NCBI GenBank assembly: GCA_029243545.1
Contig: JAQWRV010000008.1
Span: forward strand, 1-64,000
Length of the DNA: 64,000 nt
Source of the DNA: Rhodospirillaceae bacterium
GTDB taxonomy: Bacteria > Pseudomonadota > Alphaproteobacteria > Rhodospirillales > Rhodospirillaceae
Reading direction: 5' to 3'
Part shown: positions 25,066 through 53,631 of the stretch, piece after piece
Position numbering within the stretch: the stretch's first letter is position 1
How the letters are laid out: each line of letters starts with the position of its first letter
Notes under the pieces: model-generated
The model's database searches: none
The model's input: the letters and a program-made list of their open reading frames with translations, nothing else
What the model was told of the DNA's origin: nothing
Translations under genes and position numbers: made by a program

Positions 25066-26028
25066 ATGGCCCAACCTATCCTAACGTCGCCGGCTTGCAT
25101 GACCTATGCCTGTTCGGAGCCCGAAAAGATGGCAACCTTGTTGTCGGACGTCTTTGGCTGGAAAACCCTGTGCGAAGGTGTTGTAAATACGCACCTTGAG
25201 TCTCTTTGGGGCATTGGGCCGGGCAGCGCTGGTGAATCGTTCTCCGTCCTCCGCTCTCCCGGCTCCGATCGTGGCATGATCCGCGTCGTCTCTGGTGAAG
25301 ACCGCACACGCACCTCACCCATGAGTACGCGATGGAGCGGCGTTGAGATTGTGGTCATGGAAGACATCGAGGGGCTCCACGAGAAACTTGAATCCCATCC
25401 AGATTTCACTGTCGGCCGTGTGCCCAAGACCATCGACTTCACCGAGGCAGGTGCCAACATTCACACCTATTTCTATGTCTACCCGCCGGGCGGCACCCAC
25501 TTCATGATGACCATGGCGAGAACGGAATGCCGGGATTACGTATTCCCATACTCGCCTAATCCGGTGGGACACATCTTCGACATTCATTTGGACATCGACA
25601 AAGACGGTCCCAGCCGCGGCTTTTATGAAAAGACATTAGGTCTCACCGCGGTCTTCGACGAGGACATCACAGAAGGTTTGTTTTACGAGACCTGGGATAT
25701 ACCTGCAGGGTCGCCCGCCAATCTGACTCTGTTTAAGGGCGACGCACCTAAATTCGGTCTCGACGGAATCGAAATGCGCATTTTCGAAAAAGCGGTGATG
25801 GACCCCCTACCAGCAGTGGCAGATAAATTTGACCCCGGCTGTTGTATGACGACTTATGCCTGCACGGATATTGATGCTGTTTTCCGCGCCGTCTCCAAAA
25901 GTGATCTCGCCACCATTCTTTCCGAACCCCAATCCATTGACACTGAACCTTACGCCGGTGCTGCAGCATTCACCTTTCTCGGTCCTGACGGCGAACGGGT
26001 AGAAATCTGCAGTAGTCTTTGGGGGTAA
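25066..26028 (+). CDS. VOC (glyoxalase/dioxygenase-fold) family protein
   Basis: The 320-residue protein looks like tandem VOC modules. The repeated pattern (MTYACSEPEKMATLLSDVFGW near residue 11, HIFDIHLDIDKDGPSRGFYEK near 168, MTTYACTDIDAVFRAV near 262, then FLGPDGERVEIC) is typical. VOC proteins are metal-dependent lyases, isomerases or dioxygenases. No substrate can be named. It has no signal peptide and lies 23 bp after the SOD-like gene. Confidence 0.75.
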   Translation: MAQPILTSPACMTYACSEPEKMATLLSDVFGWKTLCEGVVNTHLESLWGIGPGSAGESFSVLRSPGSDRGMIRVVSGEDRTRTSPMSTRWSGVEIVVMEDIEGLHEKLESHPDFTVGRVPKTIDFTEAGANIHTYFYVYPPGGTHFMMTMARTECRDYVFPYSPNPVGHIFDIHLDIDKDGPSRGFYEKTLGLTAVFDEDITEGLFYETWDIPAGSPANLTLFKGDAPKFGLDGIEMRIFEKAVMDPLPAVADKFDPGCCMTTYACTDIDAVFRAVSKSDLATILSEPQSIDTEPYAGAAAFTFLGPDGERVEICSSLWG

Positions 26029-26637: not shown

Positions 26638-27495
26638 ATGCCACAAAACGCACCAACTCTATCCCGCAGATCCCTGCTCGCCAGTGCGACGGCCGGCGCC
26701 GTGATCATCAGCGCCGGACGACCGGCGCAGGCTGCACTTAATCTGGAGGACCCATCTGAGTACCTCACCACAGTCCTTAAGATGCGCGGATGCGTCGACG
26801 GCAGTCTCAGCCTGGGTTGGATCATGGGCCAGCGTTACGCGATCGTCGACGGCAAGGCCACACCCATGTACGGCCTGCTCGCCAGTACCTTTGCCAATTA
26901 CACCCGCATCGACGCTGAGAATTTTGAAATGCGCTCCTTCGAGGTGGCTTACTTCACTGACCTCAAAACCGGCAAGCTGCTTGAGAAATGGGAGAACCCG
27001 TTCACCGGCAAGGTCGTCGATGTGCCGCAGACCCGTATGGGCCCGAGCATCGTGCCTGTTATGCCCGGTGGCTTTGACCTTTCAGACAACCCGCGCATGC
27101 GGACGATGAGCGCCAACCACATGTTCCGGCCAGCCGTCACGTTGCGCGATGACATCTGGATCACGGAAGAGATTAAGATTGCCGGTGACCCGCCTAACAG
27201 TGGACCCAATCCTTTCCGGTACAATGAAATGACCACCTACAATGCAAGCCTAAGGGATCTCGAAAAGCCGGATCTCGCTACCGTACCGACAAAAATTCAG
27301 TACCAAAGCGCCGTTGGCTTTTCGCCGTGGAACGCCATGGGCGATATCGATGCCATCAACATGGGCCGGGGCTCGGGCACCCGCGTTGCCAGGGTGGAGG
27401 ATTTCCCACCGTACTATTTGGAACTCACGGAGAAATATCACGCAGATGTTTTGAATGACCCCATGGCCATATTGTATGGCCCGCGTCACAACTAA
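26638..27495 (+). CDS. DUF1838 family protein, Tat-type leader (copy 1)
   Basis: The 285-residue protein opens with a twin-arginine leader (LSRRSLLASATAG, ending AQAA). The body matches DUF1838: FEVAYFTDLKTGKLLEKW, NPFTGKVVDVPQTRMGPS and FRYNEMTTYNAS. The family has no established function; it is inferred to be a periplasmic or outer-leaflet protein. An AGAGGAG ribosome binding site precedes the ATG. It is 38 bp before a second copy and the two probably form an operon. Confidence 0.85.
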   Translation: MPQNAPTLSRRSLLASATAGAVIISAGRPAQAALNLEDPSEYLTTVLKMRGCVDGSLSLGWIMGQRYAIVDGKATPMYGLLASTFANYTRIDAENFEMRSFEVAYFTDLKTGKLLEKWENPFTGKVVDVPQTRMGPSIVPVMPGGFDLSDNPRMRTMSANHMFRPAVTLRDDIWITEEIKIAGDPPNSGPNPFRYNEMTTYNASLRDLEKPDLATVPTKIQYQSAVGFSPWNAMGDIDAINMGRGSGTRVARVEDFPPYYLELTEKYHADVLNDPMAILYGPRHN

Positions 27496-27533
27496 AGCTA
27501 ACGTCCACGACTAATGCTCAAAGGAATTCCAAT

Positions 27534-28415
27534 ATGACTGATATCGACCCCATCGTTGGCAGCCTGTCCCGCCGGTCCTTACTGGGTGGTGTTGGTGCCG
27601 CTGGTCTTTTGGCTGCGTCACCTGCTTTCGCGGACAATCACGCCATGGTGCACGCAGGTCTCGACTTCTCCGACAAAAAAGACCGCATGAAAGCGTTGAT
27701 CAAAATGCGCGCTTCCATGGATAACCGCATCGTCATGGGCGGGGTCCAAGGGCTTTACTACGGCGTAGTCAACAACAAGATCGCGCCGCTTTACGGCGTC
27801 TTGGCCGGCACCATGGCCCGCTACAAGCAGCTTGATGAATGGCGTTATGAAGGCACGTCCTTCGAAGTCGCCTATTTCACCGATTGGGAAACCGGCGAAG
27901 TGATGGAGACGTTTGACAACCCTTACACAGGCGAAACCGTCGATGTGCCGCATACGCGCATGGGCCCAAGTAAGATCATCATCGGCATCGATGGCCGGGA
28001 AATTCCGTCAGATAACCCGGCGCTCGCAGGCATGGATATCAGCCACCGTTTCATTCCGCCGCGTATTCACAATGGCACCGTGATTTTGGTTGAAGAAGTT
28101 CACGCCGGCACGCCGGACGGCTTCAAAGGCCCGAACTTCCATTACAACGAAGTCACCACCTACCGGGCCCGTGCGGAAGATGTTGCTAATCCGGATGTCA
28201 AGCTGGCCAATGACAGCACCCACTTCAACGGCATCGTCACCTGGCGCCCCTGGCTCAAGATGACAGGGCACCCGGGCCACTTGTTCGGCACCGCCACCGG
28301 TGGGCGTTACGCCTCGGTCGAAGAGTACCCGACGTATTATGTGGAGATGACCAACAAGTATCACCCCGATGTCTTTGGCGATACCGCAGCCCTTCTGGCC
28401 AGCGCCGACCATTAA
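27534..28415 (+). CDS. DUF1838 family protein, Tat-type leader (copy 2)
   Basis: The 293-residue paralogue of the preceding gene has its own twin-arginine leader (LSRRSLLGGVGAAG, ending AFA-DN). It shares FEVAYFTDWETGEVME, NPYTGETVDVPHTRMGPS and FHYNEVTTYRA with copy 1. Conserved Tyr, Arg and His residues in these blocks could be functional, but no catalytic set is known. It is convergent with lipB. Confidence 0.87.
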   Translation: MTDIDPIVGSLSRRSLLGGVGAAGLLAASPAFADNHAMVHAGLDFSDKKDRMKALIKMRASMDNRIVMGGVQGLYYGVVNNKIAPLYGVLAGTMARYKQLDEWRYEGTSFEVAYFTDWETGEVMETFDNPYTGETVDVPHTRMGPSKIIIGIDGREIPSDNPALAGMDISHRFIPPRIHNGTVILVEEVHAGTPDGFKGPNFHYNEVTTYRARAEDVANPDVKLANDSTHFNGIVTWRPWLKMTGHPGHLFGTATGGRYASVEEYPTYYVEMTNKYHPDVFGDTAALLASADH

Positions 28416-28444: not shown

Positions 28445-29137
28445 CTAACGCTCCGGCGTGAGAGTCACGCTAAACGTCTTTTCAAATTCCTTTTTGAGTA
28501 CGTCATCCACCGCAGTCATGTCGGCACTTTTGCCCAGGTCGTTTAGTGACGTTACATCGTGATCTGATACGCCGCAGGGCACAATGCCGCCGTAGTGGCT
28601 CAGGTCAGGGGCGACGTTCAGCGCGATACCGTGAAAAGCGATCCACTTGCGCACCCGCACGCCCAACGCCCCAATTTTATCTTCTCCGCCGAGTGCATTA
28701 CTGTTGGGGTAGCCCATAACACCAGCCGGACGCTTGACCCAAATGCCGACCCGGTCTGCCCGGCATTCGCCAACCACATCGAAGTGGGCGAGGGAGCGGA
28801 TCAGCCACTGTTCCAGTGCGCTCACATAAGCGCGCACATCCTTTTTCATGCGGCGCAGGTCGAGCATCACATAGGCCACGCGCTGGCCAGGTCCGTGATA
28901 GGTGTATTGGCCGCCCCGTCCGGTCTTGAACACCGGGAAGCGGTCTGGGTCGATGAGGTCCGTATCCTTTGCGCTGGTGCCTGCAGTATACAGCGGCGGG
29001 TGCTCCAGGAACCACAATAACTCTGGCGCCTCTCCGGCCTGTATGGCGGCGACACGGGCCTTCATTTCGGCGATGGTGGCCTCATAGGGTTGCGGTGCGT
29101 CGCTCTGCCGGAAGGCGATGTTGCTCGACATATCCAT
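28445..29137 (-). CDS. lipB: Octanoyl-[acyl-carrier-protein] transferase LipB
   Basis: LipB moves octanoate from ACP to lipoyl domains, the first step of lipoate synthesis. [38 protein letters not shown] and the catalytic Cys in [13 protein letters not shown] are present. ATG at 29137 or 29131 is likely; AAGGGG (29142-29147) lies upstream of both. A longer frame upstream lacks similarity. No lipA is in the window. Confidence 0.93.
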
Positions 29138-29258
29138 AGGGCCCCTTATAGCCCCGAATAGGAGCCTCTGCAGCACTTCCCTCCATTCGCCGCTCTTGCG
29201 CCTAGAGCGCGGGTTTGGTATCTCCCAGCCTCCTCAGGCGGGTGTGTCATAATCCGCC

Positions 29259-29333
29259 GGGCCGGATGGCTCAGATGCACCCCGGGCTGAAAGCCCAAAT
29301 GTGCGCCTGGGCGGAACGCCCAAATGTGCGGTC
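29259..29333 (+). repeat. Three tandem 25-bp hairpin units before tRNA-Leu
   Basis: Units start at 29259, 29284 and 29309, exactly 25 bp apart. Each begins GGGC, folds as a five-base stem over a short GAA/GGA-type loop, and ends with a CAAATGTGCG-like stretch (CAGATGCAC in unit 1). Stem changes are compensated (T-A in unit 2, G-C in unit 3). The last unit runs into the first bases of the tRNA. The period is not a multiple of three, so it is not coding. Confidence 0.75.
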
Positions 29334-29414
29334 GTGGCGGAATTGGTAGACGCGCAGCGTTGAGGTCGCTGTGGGAGAAATCCCGTGGAGGTTCAAGTCC
29401 TCTCGACCGCACCA
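29328..29414 (+). tRNA. tRNA-Leu (anticodon GAG)
   Basis: The acceptor stem is GCGGTCG paired with CGACCGC, followed by A and an encoded CCA. The anticodon stem CAGCG/CGCTG encloses TTGAGGT, so the anticodon is GAG. A long variable arm (GTGGGAGAAATCCCGT) and the GGTTCAAGTCC T arm confirm a class II leucine tRNA. A T-run follows the gene. Confidence 0.97.
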
Positions 29415-29532
29415 TTTTTTGAGCGAGCTACTAACTCTTCTCGGTTCATTTTTGGGACGAAAGCGGATATTTACCGAAGTTAATTGCATGTACGCTTTAG
29501 GGGCAACAGGTGACATCGCACCAAGGTTTTTG

Positions 29533-30885
29533 TCAGCTTGTCTCTTCTAAATCAAACTTGGTCAGCAGCAGCGCACCGGCGACGTTAAATAACGCCGGTA
29601 GCACCGATGACAGCAACAAGATCGCAACGATGGCGGACTGCGGTTGTTCGGTTGGCATGTCGCCGCCCGCCGCGCTGATGAAACCGGCCGCCTCCAGGGC
29701 AAATCCGGCAGTCAACGGGCCGAACGCCGCCGTGCCTTTTTCCACCATGCTGTATATGCCCGCCAGCGTGCCTTCCTGGGCGACGCCGCTGGTCTTGGTG
29801 TTGTGTTCCATGGTGTCGGGCAATATCGAGAAGCCCATGACCAGAATGCCCGACAATCCAACGCCGATTAGAAAGATACGTGTATTGGTCACGAACGATG
29901 GTTCACCCAGTGCCGCGATGACCCACGACAACACCACCAGGGCATAAAAAAGTCCGGCACCCATATAAGAGTTGCGTTTGCCGTAACGTTTACCGATCCA
30001 GCTCCACGCCGGGAGCGACAGCATCGTGCCTGCGGTTTGATAGATGACGAAGCGGATGAGAAACTCTTCACCTTCGCCAATGACGTAGCGCGCTAGGTAG
30101 AGCATGGATACGCCGACCATGGCCGTCGACATCAACTGACAAAACTTCGTGCCCATATAAATTTTGAAAGGCCCGTTGCGCCACACGATTTTGAGTTGCG
30201 CCAGAAAGCTATCCTGAGAGGGTTTGCTCCTTGTCACCACCGGTGCGCGCGCCACCACCACCGCACAAAATGCCATGGCGGCTGTGATGATCGTTGCAAA
30301 ACTGAATCCCATGCCCATGTACCCGGGGCGGCCGCCGCCAAAGCGTTCAATTAACACTGGCCCGAGCCCGGCGATGACCATACTGGCGACCGTCATGGCC
30401 ACCACCCGGTACGACATCATGGTGGTGCGTTGTTCCGGCACGCCGGTGATTTCCGCCGGTACCGCAAGATAGGGGACTACAAACAACGTATACCCGGTGG
30501 AGAACAGCAACAGCGCCGCCAGCACATAGGCGTTTAAACTCATGCCAGTGAGTCCATGGGGTATGGCGAACAGCGCGGCGAAGGAAATCCCGGCGAGGGG
30601 CGCACCCATCATCAGATAGGGCGCGCGACGTCCCCAACGCTGGCTCCAACGACCCTGTGTGTGGTCACTCCATTGTCCCACCAGTAAACACGCACCGATG
30701 TCCCACAGCCGGGACAGAAAAATCAGTGTGCCTGCTACAGCTGGAGGGATGCCCAGGTATTCCGTCAAGTAAAATAGTACCAGCAGGGTCATGGCGCCGA
30801 GCATGATGCTCGAGCCGATGGTGCCGCTGGCCCAACCGGCAGATGTCGCCTTGGAAACGCCTAAAACAGAGTGTGGGTCGCTCAA
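29533..30885 (-). CDS. GPH-type MFS sugar/cation symporter-like transporter
   Basis: The 450-residue protein has about twelve hydrophobic segments. Loop motifs such as RLWDIGACLLVGQWSDHTQGRWSQRWGRR (read in pieces) are typical of the MelB/GPH branch of the major facilitator superfamily, which brings in glycosides or other compounds with a cation. The substrate is unknown. It lies 3 bp after the PAP/fibrillin-like gene on the same strand, so the two may share a transcript. Confidence 0.85.
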   Translation of the reverse strand: MSDPHSVLGVSKATSAGWASGTIGSSIMLGAMTLLVLFYLTEYLGIPPAVAGTLIFLSRLWDIGACLLVGQWSDHTQGRWSQRWGRRAPYLMMGAPLAGISFAALFAIPHGLTGMSLNAYVLAALLLFSTGYTLFVVPYLAVPAEITGVPEQRTTMMSYRVVAMTVASMVIAGLGPVLIERFGGGRPGYMGMGFSFATIITAAMAFCAVVVARAPVVTRSKPSQDSFLAQLKIVWRNGPFKIYMGTKFCQLMSTAMVGVSMLYLARYVIGEGEEFLIRFVIYQTAGTMLSLPAWSWIGKRYGKRNSYMGAGLFYALVVLSWVIAALGEPSFVTNTRIFLIGVGLSGILVMGFSILPDTMEHNTKTSGVAQEGTLAGIYSMVEKGTAAFGPLTAGFALEAAGFISAAGGDMPTEQPQSAIVAILLLSSVLPALFNVAGALLLTKFDLEETS

Positions 30886-30888
30886 AGT

Positions 30889-31626
30889 TTAGGTAGCCGG
30901 GAAGGCGGGCGGGTTAATGGCATTTCCCTTGGCGTGCTCAACGGAATACAGGGGCGCGTCTTTGCGGAACATAATGTAGTGACCGCCGAGTTGACCTAAT
31001 TGAATGCGCATGTGGTCATCCATGTAGGCGATATCTGAATACAGTTTGGGGGAGGGCGACAACTCCGCCACCAAATCGCTCGGGCTGTCGATGCCGGTGG
31101 CCTTGCAATAGGCCTCGACCGACATGGTCGGATCCACCGGCGCGATTTCAAACTTATCGAACAGCACGTTGAACCGGTCCGGGTGTTCGTCTTTGCGCTC
31201 GAAGCGCCCGTAGGTGAAATGATGAGAGTCGATCTGCGCTTCGCCCACCAGAAGGCGGCCATAGAAGTTGTAGATCCCGTTCTGGGGGTCGATCTCCAAT
31301 GCACTGCCCGCATGAGTGGCGGGTACATCGGGCATGCGCCCCATGGAAAATGCCTTCAGGGTTGCGGTCACGCCCGTGCCTTGGTCTGTTGTGCCGTCAC
31401 CGCCCACCAGCCGCCCGAAGTTGTAGTACTCCCCGGCCCAGTGGCCGCCATACACATCCACATGGTCCAGCGCACGCGGGTAGGGGGTCAAGGCAGCCAG
31501 TTCGTCAATGACCTCATTGATGCGCTTGGATTCCGGCGTGCCTGAGGCAAAACCTTCCTTATGGGTGCCAATGGTCTCAACCAGTTCCGCCCGCAGGGCC
31601 AAACGCCTTTCTTCATCCCGGCTCAT
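30889..31626 (-). CDS. PAP/fibrillin-like lipid-associated protein
   Basis: ATG at 31626 is chosen because GGAGG lies just upstream; a longer frame is not supported. The 245-residue protein has the pattern of the PAP/fibrillin fold, a lipocalin-like domain best known from plastids: ALRAELVETIGTHKEGF and INEVIDELAALTPYPRAL at the start, GHWAGEYYNFGR, and near the end YMDDHMRIQLGQLGGHYIMFRK. It has no signal peptide. It may bind a hydrophobic small molecule. The assignment rests on motif recognition only. Confidence 0.55.
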   Translation of the reverse strand: MSRDEERRLALRAELVETIGTHKEGFASGTPESKRINEVIDELAALTPYPRALDHVDVYGGHWAGEYYNFGRLVGGDGTTDQGTGVTATLKAFSMGRMPDVPATHAGSALEIDPQNGIYNFYGRLLVGEAQIDSHHFTYGRFERKDEHPDRFNVLFDKFEIAPVDPTMSVEAYCKATGIDSPSDLVAELSPSPKLYSDIAYMDDHMRIQLGQLGGHYIMFRKDAPLYSVEHAKGNAINPPAFPAT

Positions 31627-31724
31627 TGTTCGCCTCCACCATTTACACTTCTTTGGCTGTGGTGATCTTAAAGTATTCAATGCACACTGAGAATGGCTTG
31701 CGGGGGTTATAACGGGGACCACTC

Positions 31725-32651
31725 ATGAAAAGACGCACTCTGCTCAGCGGAGCGGCAACGCTAACTGCTTCCATCACTGGCGCGCTGGCTACGATGCGTG
31801 GGGCGCCGGCAACGGCCCAGCCTCTGTCGCCTACACCGGGTGGAAATAACGCGCTGGAATCGGGCGCAAAAACAATGTCGGTTGAGGGGGCAACGGTTCT
31901 GGTGACCGGCTCCAACCGGGGGATTGGCCTAGGCTTTGTCAAAGTCCTGCTCGGCCGGGGGGCCAAGCGCGTTTATGCCACGGCGCGCAATCCCGACAAT
32001 CTGCCCGATGTGATCGCGCTCGATCCTCAACGGGTCGTTGGTCTCGAATTGGATGTGAACAATGAGGAGCAACGCCTTGCGGCTGCGGAAGCGGCGACCG
32101 ACGTCACCTGGCTGATCAATAATGCCGGTACGCCGGGCACTTTCACCGCAGAAGACCGGCGCATAGCTTCGGCGTCGACCCTGGACGATGCCAAGTTTGT
32201 TATGGAAACCAATTGCTGGTCGCCGGCGGAACTCGCACGGCTTTTCATTCCCATCATCCTGGCCAACGGCGGCGGCGCTATCACCAATATCTTGTCGGTC
32301 GGTGCCTGGTTCTGTTTGCCCGAATACACCAGCTACAGCATGTCGAAATCGGCAGCGGCGATGATGACTGCGGGATTGCGGGCGGAGTTGGACCGCGAAC
32401 CGGTTCTGGTGTCCGGGGTCTTTACCGGCGGCGTGCAGACTCGCCTGTCACCACCCGGATATACCGGCGGTGTGTCTGCGGTGGATCACGGCCTTGAAGT
32501 GGTCGAGGCCATGTCCCAGGGCGTGACCGATGTGTTTGCCGGTGGCGGGTCTGAAGCCATGCGCGCCCAAATTTTGCAAGACTCGCAAGCCTTCGAGCGC
32601 GGTGTCATTGAGCGCTTCCATACCAGCCCCCTAGCGATAGCGCCGTTCTAA
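31725..32651 (+). CDS. Short-chain dehydrogenase/reductase with Tat-like leader
   Basis: The 308-residue protein begins MKRRTLLSGAATLTASITG, a twin-arginine-like leader, with the Rossmann fold starting only about residue 55 (TVLVTGSNRGIGLG). NNAG, the catalytic Ser region and YSMSK (Tyr-x3-Lys) are in place, so it should be an active NAD(P)-dependent oxidoreductase. If exported, Tat would carry it folded with its cofactor. It diverges from the PAP/fibrillin-like gene. Confidence 0.8.
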   Translation: MKRRTLLSGAATLTASITGALATMRGAPATAQPLSPTPGGNNALESGAKTMSVEGATVLVTGSNRGIGLGFVKVLLGRGAKRVYATARNPDNLPDVIALDPQRVVGLELDVNNEEQRLAAAEAATDVTWLINNAGTPGTFTAEDRRIASASTLDDAKFVMETNCWSPAELARLFIPIILANGGGAITNILSVGAWFCLPEYTSYSMSKSAAAMMTAGLRAELDREPVLVSGVFTGGVQTRLSPPGYTGGVSAVDHGLEVVEAMSQGVTDVFAGGGSEAMRAQILQDSQAFERGVIERFHTSPLAIAPF

Positions 32652-32929
32652 AGAGAGATAGCGCCGTTTTGAATTTTTCTTTGTCATGCCCCGATCCACC
32701 CATCAGGTCGCAAGAACCCTCAAGATCTCAACGCCTGTGCGGATGAACAGTGGATTGCCCCAACCAAGTAAGGCACTGACAGATCAATGCTGCATTCTCA
32801 GGCCGACAGTGCGGTGATTTGAAACACGATACTCTGGGATGAGGGCAACACGAACCTGTTGATGGTGAAGGCCTTTTAAGGCCGGTTGGAGCCGTATAGG
32901 ATTTGCTACCCCATATGGAGGATGCCGTC

Positions 32930-33658
32930 ATGCCGACTGTTTTAGTCACCGGAGCGAACCGCGGGATTGGTCTGGGCTTCGTCCGCCAATACGCAACGGA
33001 AGGGTGGGAGGTCATTGCCTGTTGCCGCAGTCCGCAGAGTGCTGATGACCTAAACGCACTCGCCACACAAAGCGCCACATCAAGCGGGGGTCGGGTGCAG
33101 GTTGAACAGATGGATGTTGCTGATCACGCCAGCGTTGATGCGTTGGCCAAGAAATATGCGGGCAAGCCCATGGATGTTCTCATTAATAACGCTGGTGTGC
33201 CCGGTCCGCGTGGCGACAATCGAGAATTCATATTCAAGCAGATGTTCGGCACCATTGATTATGCGGCCTGGGACGATGTGTTTCGCATCAACACCATGGG
33301 CGCGCTCAAAGTCTCTGAAGCGTTCGCGGAGAATGTGGCGGCCAGTGCAGAGAAAAAGATTGTCGCGGTTTCCAGCACCATGGGGTCCATCCAGGAAGGA
33401 ACGATGCCGGTTTTTATCTATGGGTCAAGCAAGGCGGCCAGCAACTGGGTCGTCTCCATGATGGCCCATGAACTGAAAGATCGCGGCATTATTGCGATGA
33501 CTTTTTGTCCCGGACATGTGCGAACCGATATGGGCGGGCCCGAAGCCCCGGTTGAAGTGGAAGACAGTGTCTCCGGTATGCGGAAGATCATCGCCGGCCT
33601 GACACTCGACGACACGGGCAGCTTCAAACGGTTCGACGGGGAAACTGTCGCTTGGTAG
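32930..33658 (+). CDS. Short-chain dehydrogenase/reductase, tandem copy A
   Basis: ATG at 32930 follows GGAGG (32917-32921) with eight bases between. The 242-residue SDR has TGANRGIGLGF, NNAG and YGSSK (catalytic Tyr and Lys), and is most like the C-factor/sniffer branch. The 278-bp stretch before it shows no gene. Its substrate is unknown. Confidence 0.9.
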   Translation: MPTVLVTGANRGIGLGFVRQYATEGWEVIACCRSPQSADDLNALATQSATSSGGRVQVEQMDVADHASVDALAKKYAGKPMDVLINNAGVPGPRGDNREFIFKQMFGTIDYAAWDDVFRINTMGALKVSEAFAENVAASAEKKIVAVSSTMGSIQEGTMPVFIYGSSKAASNWVVSMMAHELKDRGIIAMTFCPGHVRTDMGGPEAPVEVEDSVSGMRKIIAGLTLDDTGSFKRFDGETVAW

Positions 33659-33716
33659 CCCAGGTCTGCTCACAGAATTCGATAGGCTATGCCCACCCTG
33701 GACGGAGGATAGGTTC

Positions 33717-34445
33717 ATTCCGACTGTTTTAATTACCGGAGCAAACCGCGGCATTGGACTGGGGTTTTCCCGCCGGTATGCGGGAGAGGGGTGGAATGTC
33801 ATTGCCTGCTGCCGCAATCCGCAACAGGCAGACGAACTGAACACACTGGCCACACAATGCGGCACATCAAGCGGGGGCCGGGTGCAGGTTGAACCCATGG
33901 ACGTGGCCGATCACGCCAGTATCGATGCGCTGGCCCAAAAATACGTTGGCACGGCGATGGATGTGCTCATTAACAATGCCGGTGTGTCTGTTCCGCGCAG
34001 CGCCAACGGAGAACATCGGCTTAAGCAAACGTTCGGCACCCTTGATTACACGGCTTGGGATAATATTTTTCAGGTTAACGTCAAGGGATTACTCAAAGTC
34101 TCTGAAGCCTTCGTGGAAAACGTGTCCGCCAGTTCAGACAAAACCATCGTTGCGCTTTCCAGCACCATGGGGTCAATCCAGGAAGGGGCGTTGCCCGTCT
34201 TTCTCTATGGATCAAGTAAGGCGGCCGGCAATTGGATCATCTCCATGCTGGCGAAAGAGCTGAAAGAGCGCGGCATTATAACAGTGAGCCTGTGTCCGGG
34301 GCATGTAAAAACTGCCATGGGTGGCCCGATCGCCCCGATCGAGGTGGACGACAGCGTCGCCGGTATGCGGAAGACCATCGCCGGCCTGACCCTGGACGAT
34401 ACGGGCAGCTTCAAACGGTTCAACGGGGAAACTGTTGCCTGGTAG
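33717..34445 (+). CDS. Short-chain dehydrogenase/reductase, tandem copy B (AUU start)
   Basis: This copy aligns end to end with copy A, also 243 codons, with TGANRGIGLGF, NNAG and YGSSK intact. At the position of copy A's ATG it has ATT (33717), behind GGAGG (33704-33708) at the same eight-base distance. No in-frame ATG, GTG or TTG occurs nearby. Either ATT is used as a start, as in infC, or translation is weak and the copy is decaying. The reading frame is otherwise open. Confidence 0.7.
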   Translation: MPTVLITGANRGIGLGFSRRYAGEGWNVIACCRNPQQADELNTLATQCGTSSGGRVQVEPMDVADHASIDALAQKYVGTAMDVLINNAGVSVPRSANGEHRLKQTFGTLDYTAWDNIFQVNVKGLLKVSEAFVENVSASSDKTIVALSSTMGSIQEGALPVFLYGSSKAAGNWIISMLAKELKERGIITVSLCPGHVKTAMGGPIAPIEVDDSVAGMRKTIAGLTLDDTGSFKRFNGETVAW

Positions 34446-34662
34446 CCCGAGAGCCAAATTGATTTGTAACAACCACAAGGTTCCCTGACACGCGGGCATG
34501 CTATGCGGGCTAGAAACCCATACCGGTAGAGTCAGTCACACCTAAACCAATTTTCTCTTCGTCCCAATTCTAGATTGCATTGCGGCTTATGTATGCAGTT
34601 ATACTGACGAGGCGTGCTGCTTTTGGTCGTGTTTGTTGAAATCAAGATGCAGGACATAAACC

Positions 34663-34719
34663 GTGTTCATTTTTCTCGGAATTGCAGCTGTCGTTCTCCT
34701 CGTTCTGTACATCATGTAG
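34663..34719 (+). CDS. Possible 18-residue hydrophobic peptide (LemA-like start)
   Basis: GTG at 34663 follows AGGA by eight bases and opens a short hydrophobic peptide (MFIFLGIAAVVLLVLYIM) closed by TAG. It resembles the N-terminal helix of LemA-type membrane proteins, but nothing follows. It may be a relic or a chance frame. The rest of 34446-34752 shows no gene; TATACT at 34600 may be a -10 box. Confidence 0.2.
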   Translation: MFIFLGIAAVVLLVLYIM

Positions 34720-34752
34720 GCTACCATGCCACAACGGCCATAGGAGGACACC

Positions 34753-35907
34753 ATGAGTTCTCATCCAGGTTATCCGTCACACCCAGGGCATCACGCATTG
34801 CTGCCTTGTCCGTCGCATGACGAAGCCGCTCGGCAGACCTTCGTACGCGACCTGCGCACGCATCTAGCCGTGGAAGTTTTTCCCGGCAACCGCTTGGCCT
34901 ACGCCCATCGTGTCGAACCCGCATTTCACAAACACAACAAGCGCACGCCCAAGGACCGTCATGAAATCCGCAAGGCTATGGCACATGATTCCTACTATCA
35001 GATGTGGAGCGCTATGCAGCGCAACAGTCAGGAATTGATGTGGGATTCCGTTGTCGATACGGTCGAGCGCGCCTTGCCGGACCTCATCGCCACTCCGCAA
35101 CCCGGTAACGCCAAGGGATCTTTGACTCTAGATGTAGACCTGTCCATGCCGGACTATCTGACGTCTTACGACATTCACCTACAGCCGGGCGGCTATCATT
35201 CGGAAGTCTGCGCCCAAGATATCGCCGCAGGTGCGGTCTACGACGGCGGCTTGCCCATCTATGCCATGGATTCCCTCGGGCCGCTCAATGATGACCTGGG
35301 CTGGACCACGGTCGAATGCTACCAGGAGCACTTCCCTGGCCGCAAACCAGCCCGTGTGCTTGACCTCGGCTGTTCCGTTGGGCACTCAACTCTGCCCTGG
35401 TCCGAAGCGTTTCCGGACGCTGACGTGCATGCCATCGACGTCGGGGCGCCGCTGTTGCGTTACGGCCATGGCCGGGCAGAAGCGCTGGGCCGCTCCGCTC
35501 ATTTCAGTCAGCAAAACGCGGAGCAAACCAATTTTCATGCGGGATCGTTCGACGTTATCGTCTCGCACTTCTTCATGCATGAAACATCGCGCAAGGCCTT
35601 GCCGCGCGTGTTCGCCGAATGCCGCCGGTTGCTGTCACCGGGCGGGATCATGCTGCATCTCGATCTGGAGCAAGACCGGGATCTTGATCCGCTGACTTCA
35701 TTTCTCATGGAATGGGAAGTCTACAACAATAATGAAAGTTTCATGGGTCAGTTGCGCAGCCTCGATTTAGAAGCGCTGGCAGTCGAGGCGGGGTTTGCAG
35801 AGGCTAAAGTGGAACGTATACAACAACCCAGTCACGCAAGTTCTGATCAAACCGGCGACGGTTACGTTAATTTCTTCACTTGGCCGGTTCTAACAGCTTC
35901 GGCCTGA
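34753..35907 (+). CDS. Class I SAM-dependent methyltransferase
   Basis: The 384-residue protein has an extended N-terminal part of about 190 residues without recognised domain, then the Rossmann methyltransferase motifs: VLDLGCSVGHSTLPW (motif I), VHAIDVGAPLL, FDVIVSHFFMHE and LLSPGGIMLHLDLE. A GGAGG ribosome binding site precedes the ATG. The substrate is not known; the neighbouring SDR and hydrolase genes suggest small-molecule metabolism. Confidence 0.8.
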   Translation: MSSHPGYPSHPGHHALLPCPSHDEAARQTFVRDLRTHLAVEVFPGNRLAYAHRVEPAFHKHNKRTPKDRHEIRKAMAHDSYYQMWSAMQRNSQELMWDSVVDTVERALPDLIATPQPGNAKGSLTLDVDLSMPDYLTSYDIHLQPGGYHSEVCAQDIAAGAVYDGGLPIYAMDSLGPLNDDLGWTTVECYQEHFPGRKPARVLDLGCSVGHSTLPWSEAFPDADVHAIDVGAPLLRYGHGRAEALGRSAHFSQQNAEQTNFHAGSFDVIVSHFFMHETSRKALPRVFAECRRLLSPGGIMLHLDLEQDRDLDPLTSFLMEWEVYNNNESFMGQLRSLDLEALAVEAGFAEAKVERIQQPSHASSDQTGDGYVNFFTWPVLTASA

Positions 35908-35926
35908 ATAAAACTTAGGGATACAT

Positions 35927-36064
35927 ATGATGAACGCTAAGTGCTGGAGGGGCGCTCTCGCGCTCGGCTTTTCCCTTCTGATATCGGGGGCATGTTACGC
36001 AGGGGCGATTGCCGTCATCGGCACGGAGTTGACAAATGTCAGTAGCGTTAGGTTGGCCAAATGA
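35927..36064 (+). CDS. Small secreted peptide coupled to the MBL-fold gene
   Basis: ATG at 35927 (or 35930), behind AGGGAT, opens 45 codons: a basic start (MNAKCWRGALALGF), a hydrophobic core and ACYAG, a possible signal-peptidase site or weak lipobox, followed by about 20 residues. Its TGA overlaps the ATG of the next gene (ATGA), which supports real translation. No family is recognised. Confidence 0.55.
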   Translation: MMNAKCWRGALALGFSLLISGACYAGAIAVIGTELTNVSSVRLAK

Positions 36065-36999
36065 AAATATTACTCACAGTTCTTGCGGCCCTGTGCTTTG
36101 CGGCAGTTGCAAGTGCACAAGACTATGTTCCCAACGAAGTCTATCGCAGCGCTGACGGCGCGGCCTCCGTTGAGGACTTGGGAGAGGGGGTCTATCTCTT
36201 CCGCTGGTGGCCTGGGTTTTATGTCAGCCCTTTTGTCGTCGGCGATGATGTAGTTTTAGCGGTCGATCCGGTGAGCCGTGACGTAGCCGTGCTCTATCGC
36301 GATGCCGTTGCTGCCGTGACGGATTTACCGATCACCAAGATTGTCTACAGTCATGACCACCGCGATCACATCGTTGGTGCCGATGTGTTGTCCCCAGACG
36401 CTGAGGTTATTGCCCATCCTGGCACGCTGGCGTCACTGCAACGCCGCAGTGACCCAGATATTCCGTTGCCGCAAACTCTGGTCGACAACGGTGACACCAT
36501 AGAGATCAGTGGGCGCACCGTCGGTGTGCACTACTTCGGACCCAACCACGGTGACAGCAACATCGGTCTGACGTTTCAAACCGGTATGGGGTCCATGCTG
36601 GTCTTCGTTGATACGTTGGAGATCGGCATCGTGCCCTATCGCACCCTGCCGGATACCAACGTCCACGGCTACATTGCGACGCTTCGTGGGGCGTCCCAGC
36701 TGGGCGTCGACTGGGCTCTTGGCGGACACAGCGGCCCAGGCCCTGGCATTTGGATCGACAATTATCTCAATTATTTTCTCGACATGGAACAGGCCCTGAT
36801 CAAAGCCGAAGCTGAAGTCGTCCAGCTGCCGTCAGACTCTGTGGAGGACGTTATTGCCCAAGGTGAGCGCTATACTGACGCTGTCATCGCAAGGGCAGTT
36901 GATGACCTTCGGCCTGCCTATGGTCAATGGCGCGGCTTTGAAGCCTGGGCCCCGCTCAATGCCCAGACCGTGCGCATGTACATCATTACCGGGAACTGA
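36061..36999 (+). CDS. Exported metallo-beta-lactamase-fold hydrolase
   Basis: The 312-residue protein has a Sec signal peptide ending ASAQ-DY. The zinc-binding set is complete: His98, His100, Asp102 and His103 (SHDHRDH), His163 (NHGDS), Asp184 (FVDTLE) and His223 (GGHSG). Family members include beta-lactamases, lactonases and other hydrolases; this one looks closer to the quinoprotein-relay and alkylsulfatase-like environmental group than to drug-resistance enzymes, but the substrate is unknown. It is coupled to the small upstream peptide gene. Confidence 0.83.
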   Translation: MKILLTVLAALCFAAVASAQDYVPNEVYRSADGAASVEDLGEGVYLFRWWPGFYVSPFVVGDDVVLAVDPVSRDVAVLYRDAVAAVTDLPITKIVYSHDHRDHIVGADVLSPDAEVIAHPGTLASLQRRSDPDIPLPQTLVDNGDTIEISGRTVGVHYFGPNHGDSNIGLTFQTGMGSMLVFVDTLEIGIVPYRTLPDTNVHGYIATLRGASQLGVDWALGGHSGPGPGIWIDNYLNYFLDMEQALIKAEAEVVQLPSDSVEDVIAQGERYTDAVIARAVDDLRPAYGQWRGFEAWAPLNAQTVRMYIITGN

Positions 37000-37010
37000 G
37001 GGGCGGAGCG

Positions 37011-52516: not shown

Positions 52517-52668
52517 ATGTTCACCTTCTATTCACAGACGGTTGATTTTATTGATTTCGCCTCACAGGCCAGGACGAAGTTCTAGATATCGGGTGTGCTT
52601 ATGGTGTCGCCAGACACGCCCGCCTTCGGCTGCTATAGTTTTTCTTTTTCCTAAATATGGAGTTTCCA

Positions 52669-53631
52669 ATGCTACGTCGTAATTTTCTTGTAGGAGGGGC
52701 TGGATTGGCCGCGGCCGGGGCGGTCACACAGGCCAATGCCGCCGATGCGCCGACGCTGACAGGACCGTACATCGATCTCACTACCGGCAAGGGCAACATG
52801 ATCTTGCGGGCCCGCATGGGCGGGGACTTGGACGAAAGCAAAGTCAAGTACGGCAGCGTCACGGGTATAGTGTCCGGCGTGCGGCCGGGCGAAAAGATCA
52901 AAGATCTCTTCGGTTTTGAAGTAGTCAGTGTCAGCAGGAACGAACGCCAACCGGATGGCACATACCGGAACTTGCACCGTGAATCCATTCTATACACAGA
53001 CCTCGCGACCGGAGATATTCTGACCGACTACGTGAATCCCTATATGGACGAGAAAGTCCGCGTGGTCGACGTGACCAACGACCCGTGGAATATCCATATC
53101 GCCGAATACGTCAATATGGGCGGACCGTCCTACGGCGGGCTCAACGAAGAGGCGAATGCCGGCCGCAGAGAATACATTTTGAATTGGTCTCACGCGGGCA
53201 ATGGGCTGATTACGGCTTTGACGAATATCAACCTGTACTACCCGTCTGCGCTGCAGCCGGACAAGTGGCTGCGTGAAAGCTCAGGCGCGATGAATCGGGT
53301 CTCCGAGTGTTATACCCATGTGGTCAGTCTCGCCGACGCGCAAAACGAGAATCTGACGACTGTGAAAAAGACGGGGACGTGGTCACGCGTGACGCCCTGG
53401 CTGCCGTGGATGCTTATGGGGCAGGCGCCGGGTCACTGTCTCTATCAATCAACAGTCACGACCTTGGACGGGATCGACGGTTTCAAGAAACCCGTGCTGG
53501 CCCACATGGAGAAGCATCATCCCCATATGCTGGAAGCGCCGCCGCCGGAATCCTGGGACAAACCGAACCTGTCGAGCATCGAATGGTATGCCCGGACTGA
53601 AGAGCCCGCGCCGATGAAGGCGGGGTCCTGA
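52669..53631 (+). CDS. DUF1838 family protein with exported leader (copy 3)
   Basis: ATG at 52669 follows GGAG by six bases (another in-frame ATG at 52657 is possible). The 320-residue protein has a leader (MLRRNFLVGGAGLAAAGAV, ending ANAADA) of Tat type. YTDLATGDILTDYVNPYMDEKV and WNIHIAEYVNMGGPSYGG match the DUF1838 layout of the copies near 27 kb, but more distantly. The function is unknown. It lies between rpsI and argC. Confidence 0.75.
   Translation: MLRRNFLVGGAGLAAAGAVTQANAADAPTLTGPYIDLTTGKGNMILRARMGGDLDESKVKYGSVTGIVSGVRPGEKIKDLFGFEVVSVSRNERQPDGTYRNLHRESILYTDLATGDILTDYVNPYMDEKVRVVDVTNDPWNIHIAEYVNMGGPSYGGLNEEANAGRREYILNWSHAGNGLITALTNINLYYPSALQPDKWLRESSGAMNRVSECYTHVVSLADAQNENLTTVKKTGTWSRVTPWLPWMLMGQAPGHCLYQSTVTTLDGIDGFKKPVLAHMEKHHPHMLEAPPPESWDKPNLSSIEWYARTEEPAPMKAGS

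Follow-up and report, generated by a model that had tools for sequence, protein, structure and literature searches.

The window, by which we mean the whole stretch of 64,000 nucleotides analysed here, carries three genes for proteins of the family DUF1838 (PF08894), referred to as W1, W2 and W3 (Table 1). W1 and W2 lie on the same strand, separated by 38 bases, and their products are 38% identical, the identity between W2 and W3 being 23%. All three score above the curated Pfam gathering cut-off of 25 bits, by which membership of the family was defined, and the match covers most of the domain in each. The open reading frames, Pfam scores and leaders agree with the first-pass annotation, which had reported a tandem of Tat-leader DUF1838 genes at 26638-28415 with a third gene at 52.7 kb. 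The tandem is not a chance arrangement, since the pair is conserved side by side in three other alphaproteobacterial MAGs (L021-L023), with each gene about 69% identical to its counterpart. An orthologue of W3, 89% identical, is present in genome G023. A PDB sequence search returned no solved structure related to DUF1838, and a search of viral contigs found no relatives of the family. No paper on DUF1838 function was found in an open-access literature search; the family is named in a table entry for ArtU, a DUF1838 protein of the aurantimycin cluster (PMC5031334).

Table 1. Features of the window and related features at other loci. Positions without a prefix refer to the window; prefixes name other loci.
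Feature	Position	Strand	Remarks
Two-domain VOC/glyoxalase-fold protein	25066..26028	+	relatives near the DUF1838/methyltransferase system in the window's own genome (G000), Novosphingobium and G215
W1, DUF1838 protein	26638..27495	+	285 aa, Tat leader SRRSLLASATAGAVIISAGRPAQA; 52.4 bits
W2, DUF1838 protein	27534..28415	+	293 aa, Tat leader SRRSLLGGVGAAGLLAASPAFA; 58.8 bits
W2 residues 111-134, motif E-x3-Y/F-x-D-x2-T-G...N-P-x-T-G-E	27864..27935	+	from family alignment
W2 residues 237-248, motif W-x-P-W-M/L-x-M-x4-G	28242..28277	+	from family alignment
GPH-type (MFS_2) transporter, accessory	29533..30885	-	family enriched near DUF1838 and methyltransferases
Weakly PAP_fibrillin-like protein, below Pfam cut-off	30889..31629	-	near DUF1838 in two genomes
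Class I SAM-methyltransferase with uncharacterised N-terminal domain (DxHxxPGGY)	34753..35907	+	accompanies DUF1838
W3, DUF1838 protein, Pfam-typical subgroup	52657..53631	+	324 aa, Tat leader LRRNFLVGGAGLAAAGAVTQANA; 128.7 bits
Tat-leader methyltransferases	L131:4807-11058, L142:7688-11948, L045:7837-9036, L030:13603-14790, L031:10117-11322		
SUMF1/FGE-like genes near DUF1838	L028:7153-7965, L029:9348-10430, L042:1170-1982, L045:4406-5341, L153:36343-37050		

The N-termini of the three window proteins combine a twin-arginine motif, a hydrophobic stretch and an A-x-A site, as read directly from the sequence (SRRSLL...AQA in W1, SRRSLL...AFA in W2, LRRNFL...ANA in W3). By the same kind of reading, twin-arginine leaders are found on 27-30 of the 34 DUF1838 copies in the window's own genome (G000, 3.48 Mb), the range depending on the criterion, and the family as a whole is predicted to be mostly Tat-exported. 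Such a leader indicates export in the folded state and not a cofactor, as had initially been suggested. An alignment of 149 sequences, comprising 148 true copies and one Tat-type methyltransferase collected through its leader, shows two conserved motifs (Table 1). In W2 numbering, N129 and P130 are conserved at 97%, D117 at 87%, T120 at 85% and E111 at 82% in the first motif, and M243 at 95%, G248 at 93%, W240 at 90%, P239 at 83% and W237 at 82% in the second. The core profile of the family was rebuilt after removal of this single false positive. Of the blocks previously proposed as conserved, VDVPxTRMGPS is restricted to the W1/W2 subgroup and is not family-wide; near-invariant across the alignment are N129-P130, D117, T120, E111 and W237-x-P-W-x-x-M243...G248.

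The immediate surroundings of the tandem vary between relatives. In L021-L023, the left flank consists of a carboxylase pair (only the second gene on the L022 contig) and an acylphosphatase gene, and lipB forms the right flank. In the window, the segment to the right of lipB and a tRNA-Leu gene holds the GPH transporter, the PAP-like protein, SDRs, the methyltransferase and a metallo-hydrolase. The GPH-SDR-methyltransferase block (29.5-37 kb) is missing at the tandem locus in L021 and L023, and the VOC gene is missing there in all three relatives, so that the apparent local pathway is accessory and not fixed to the tandem. A local pathway of SDR, VOC, GPH and methyltransferase genes was therefore discarded as a fixed unit, the SDRs also being unenriched within 3 kb of DUF1838 genes. 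Within 28445-37010 of the window, the tRNA-Leu(gag) gene at 29328 borders the segment that L021 and L023 lack here, and this tRNA site may be an insertion site.

Three paralogues in one window, correct as a local count, proved to be an understatement for the genome, which has 41 profile matches and about 34 intact DUF1838 genes. Six genomes of family f1, including G000, have 41, 46, 37, 41, 40 and 20 matches, and two more of the same family have 6 and 3, with none in the remaining 33 of the 41 near genomes. Beyond these near relatives, DUF1838 was found in 2 of 189 other genomes of the class and 3 of 397 other genomes of the phylum, at 1-3 copies each, and most other Proteobacteria sampled do not encode it. 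The 34 paralogues of G000 have a mean identity of only 22%, and just 10 of 561 pairs exceed 40%. For about 23 of the 34, an orthologue in another genome is at least 10 percentage points closer than any paralogue in the same genome, which indicates that the copies are old and have been retained. The expansion is thus, judging from these identities, an old and retained diversification. Another copy lies within 2 kb for 15 of the 34. Broken copies with in-frame stops also occur in G000 (C27:110519-110791, with a TAG, and C14:20494-20754, with two TAA codons). SUMF1/FGE-like genes lie within three genes of 16 DUF1838 copies in five expanded genomes, and near DUF1838 in Novosphingobium as well (Table 1).

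The window genes resemble other PF08894 members, including ArtU, in matching the profile above the curated cut-off. They differ in being putatively exported, in belonging to a set of about 34 copies and in their association with a methyltransferase family, whereas a Streptomyces copy (L025:10001-10789) lacks an export leader. This Streptomyces gene adjoins genes for a class III lanthipeptide synthetase and gas vesicles. Old expansions of paralogues in a single bacterial lineage have also been described for the catabolic enzymes of SAR202, where they were proposed to widen the range of organic compounds oxidised (PMC5395668, PMC6946804). That expansion lies in a different phylum and involves families unlike those found here, flavin monooxygenases among them, and the enzyme chemistry of those families is known.

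AlphaFold models of W2 and W3 were built from a nine-sequence alignment and compared with known structures by VIA-align and Foldseek. The W2 model is one antiparallel beta-barrel with an N-terminal helix (pLDDT 74.8 overall and 81-92 over most of the core). Its best VIA-align score among the matches listed is to BFA1 (5yvf; Z 11.1, 139 residues, 2.6 A), and it also aligns with the CpeS bilin lyase (4tq2; Z 10.7, 156 residues, 3.7 A, 8% identity) and DUF3598 (2o62; Z 10.3, 132 residues, 2.8 A). Lower matches listed include Ycf58, Rv2717c (2fr2), nitrobindin (2a13) and OssO (7sfp, Z 8.7). The W3 model, of lower confidence (64.5), has the same barrel and order of elements, with Z scores of 9.4 and 9.1 and with much the same leading matches. 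The two models agree despite 23% identity, as a fold shared among the paralogues would predict; both were built on a single alignment, however, and do not count as independent predictions. Outer-membrane barrels match the W2 model almost as well (VIA-align Z up to 10.2), and designed barrels are also interspersed among the matches, which makes a calycin-like fold likely and not proven. We therefore consider DUF1838 likely to be a calycin-like single beta-barrel, as modelled from a shallow alignment of nine sequences. Compared with the calycin barrels named above (Z 8.7-11.1 for CpeS, BFA1, DUF3598, nitrobindin, Rv2717c and OssO), sequence identity is 4-11%, and DUF1838 proteins are longer (about 250 aa when mature) and carry a Tat leader. 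The lipocalin GxW motif at the first strand is absent from W1-W3 in the alignment, which places them outside the kernel lipocalins, and profile comparison detected no homology of DUF1838 to DUF3598_N or to the DUF3108-like and PAP_fibrillin-like neighbours.

Clustering of the genes around the 149 collected DUF1838 copies revealed a methyltransferase family of about 400 aa, to which the window gene belongs. Its C-terminal domain, with motif I (DLGCSVG in the window copy, with conserved glycines), the acidic end of strand 2 and a Methyltransf_25 match (E 4e-19), is shared with class I SAM-methyltransferases such as the UbiE/BioC-like enzymes and PMT, and class I SAM-methyltransferase activity is predicted for the window protein from motif I and the profile. 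Unlike those enzymes, the partner adds an N-terminal domain of about 190 aa, for which profile and PDB searches gave no Pfam match and no convincing PDB relative, and part of the family has Tat leaders. G000 encodes 69 copies by the N-domain profile. The N-domain is found in exactly the 8 of 41 relatives that have DUF1838 and in both other DUF1838-positive genomes of the class. Its four carriers among 398 phylum genomes, with seven initial candidates scored per genome, are likewise those with DUF1838. All 13 DUF1838-positive proteobacterial genomes tested encode the methyltransferase, and copy numbers of the two families are correlated (Spearman 0.83, n=8). The methyltransferase also has an operon partner of about 120 aa, which lacks any Pfam match and marks the same eight relatives out of 41. 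Of eight plasmid records that bear the methyltransferase, six have DUF1838 as well.

The reverse association does not hold. Of 190 class genomes, 7 encode the methyltransferase and lack DUF1838, and two of these (G069 and G200, from another alphaproteobacterial family) have at least 16 copies each. DUF1838 is therefore dispensable for the methyltransferase. Among the proteobacterial genomes tested, those with DUF1838 always have the methyltransferase and not vice versa, and the notion that the two families always occur together was dropped. In actinobacterial and cyanobacterial DUF1838 records, no methyltransferase of the partner family was found within the same record. Within G000, the methyltransferases are no nearer to DUF1838 than expected by chance, with 6 of the 69 lying within 5 kb where 5.5 would be expected, and the link therefore rests on co-occurrence, copy-number correlation and pairing in other genomes. 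This pairing, in which DUF1838 is divergent from, or beside and opposed to, the operon of the methyltransferase and its companion, is found on several plasmids of the sphingomonad Novosphingobium and in G215, which belong to other families of the same class, and in G306 and G499, which belong to other classes.

A large methyltransferase subgroup has clear twin-arginine leaders (MLDRRTLFGAT...AKA) and retains the SAM-binding motif (Table 1). This combination is odd, since the periplasm is not a compartment where SAM would be expected. Arrays of five methyltransferase genes each occur at L130:4560-15159 and L131:4807-11058, with the small companion beside several of the genes in L130. Plasmid pJE1 of Sphingomonas JE1 (L154:15277-29274) and Sphingobium TomTYG65 (L155) have a block of genes of near-identical length in common, comprising methyltransferase, HapK-like, MmgE/PrpD and TonB genes, with HyuA/B additionally in pJE1. 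The gene content of this block, located on plasmids of different genera, suggests that it is a mobile catabolic block.

Genes within ten genes of DUF1838 or the methyltransferase were compared across seven lineages, as raw counts. An allantoinase-like deacetylase occurs in 6 of 7 lineages; TonB receptors, LeuC, isochorismatase-fold hydrolases and zinc alcohol dehydrogenases in 5 each; LeuD, PrpB-like lyases, SDRs and FAD oxidases in 4 each; and HyuA/HyuB, HapK-like, MmgE/PrpD and AMDase/EutA-like proteins in 3 each. LeuC and LeuD are usually present in one or two copies per genome. Active-site residues are kept in the isochorismatase-fold group (D32-K122-C155) and in the PrpB-like group (KxCGH). 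Around DUF1838 in G000, GPH transporters are enriched: 3 of the 8 lie within 3 kb, where 0.4 would be expected. SDRs are not, with 4 lying within 3 kb where 3.1 would be expected and a borderline value at 5 kb (p = 0.04). Enrichment of TonB receptors is not significant near DUF1838 alone and marginal near DUF1838 or methyltransferase jointly (p = 0.03-0.04). Neither outcome that the first-pass annotation had named as refuting was observed: the two modelled folds agree, and DUF1838 is co-located with oxidoreductases, and with catabolic-looking genes, in other genomes. The catabolic interpretation of that annotation is partly supported: the GPH enrichment, the strong methyltransferase link and the recurrence of VOC relatives speak for uptake and turnover of a compound, and the SDRs, unenriched at close range, do not.

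As judged from their families, these neighbours would suit the uptake and breakdown of cyclic amides or imides and of branched diacids. The reading that we favour, tentatively and at somewhat less than even confidence, is that DUF1838 proteins are Tat-exported, single-domain calycin-like barrels that handle small organic compounds. Together with the methyltransferase and its companion they would make up a catabolic system diversified by substrate, in which they act outside the cytoplasm. Substrates would enter through TonB receptors, and DUF1838, as binder or enzyme, would bind and probably convert them in the periplasm, each paralogue presumably serving a different compound. GPH/MFS carriers would then import the product for processing in the cytosol with the methyltransferase. 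Rings or amides could be opened by the allantoinase-like and isochorismatase-fold hydrolases or by hydantoinase-like HyuA/B, after which LeuC/LeuD and the PrpB-like lyase might hydrate and then cleave a branched diacid of the maleate/malate type. We would like to emphasize that this order of steps, and the role given to the methyltransferase, are inferred from gene families.

Several other scenarios are to be weighed against this one. Both families could belong to the general repertoire of catabolism-rich organisms and share an ecology while serving separate pathways. The chance-level spacing in G000, the seven class genomes with the methyltransferase alone and the placement of the two families on different contigs in G496 are consistent with this explanation; the divergent pairing conserved in Novosphingobium, G215, G306 and G499 and the absence of both families from all other relatives, including those with genomes of 4-5.5 Mb, argue against it, and we regard it as unlikely.

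Exported biosynthetic enzymes, namely cyclases or isomerases of specialised metabolites comparable to the calycin-fold proteins OssO and DynF, would be a non-catabolic role for DUF1838. The fold matches do include the OssO spirocyclase (Z 8.7) and DynF (Foldseek probability 1.0), ArtU sits in the aurantimycin cluster (PMC5031334), and methyltransferases are frequent in biosynthesis. However, the neighbourhoods read showed neither PKS nor NRPS genes and instead contain receptors, hydrolases, dehydrogenases and acid-cleaving lyases, making a biosynthetic role rather improbable.

A more specific catabolic scenario concerns pyrrole-derived compounds such as breakdown products of chlorophyll, bilins or haem, with DUF1838 binding a tetrapyrrole-type ligand and substituted maleimides being converted to maleates, malates, pyruvate and a short acid. 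The top fold matches include CpeS (a bilin lyase), Ycf58 and nitrobindin (a haem protein), a HapK/REDY-like gene occurs in three lineages, and the allantoinase-like and isochorismatase-fold hydrolases recur with LeuC/LeuD and the PrpB-like lyase. The order of hydrolase, LeuC/LeuD and PrpB-like lyase is known from nicotinate fermentation. The nicotinate/maleamate systems, which we take to be represented by NicF and NicE and by DmdAB and 2,3-dimethylmalate lyase, resemble the system neighbourhoods in having an isochorismatase-fold amidase, a maleate-isomerase/EutA-like protein, a LeuC/LeuD-type hydratase and an ICL/PEP-mutase lyase; they differ in nicotinate hydroxylase and ring-cleavage genes, which were not identified in the system neighbourhoods. 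Of the candidate substrates, a pyrrole or imide type is the most specific that agrees with the fold neighbours as well as with the set of hydrolases, hydratase and lyase. Calycin folds bind many ligands, however, the same set fits hydantoins, lactams or ureides equally well, HyuA is caprolactamase-like, and nothing usable was found in the literature that would connect the system with an imidase, dimethylmaleate or tetrapyrroles. An undescribed catabolic system of three families, with some methyltransferases Tat-exported and more than 100 genes in some alphaproteobacteria, that takes up and dismantles pyrrole/imide compounds such as tetrapyrrole breakdown products is a bold proposal with a low probability, and degradation of pyrrole-derived compounds through a tetrapyrrole-binding DUF1838 is, if anything, slightly more doubtful. 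Finally, neutral or selfish amplification of DUF1838 with little function, to which the broken copies (C27:110519 and C14:20494) and the close spacing of 15 of the 34 genes could point, is weakened by retention across genera, by orthologues 70-89% identical across genomes, by near-invariant residues and by the scarcity of broken copies, and is very improbable.

New here is that three uncharacterised families have expanded together and are found in the same genomes. Three families without assigned function travel together, amounting to well over a hundred genes in the window's own genome, which argues that they are linked to one process, and the apparent export of SAM-methyltransferases would be an enzymological puzzle in itself. 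The Novosphingobium plasmids provide cultivable carriers, such as N. resinovorum SA1 and N. humi KACC 19094, in which the DUF1838/methyltransferase system can be tested. If the favoured catabolic reading is true, these genes would expose a large unread part of the bacterial breakdown of complex organic matter.
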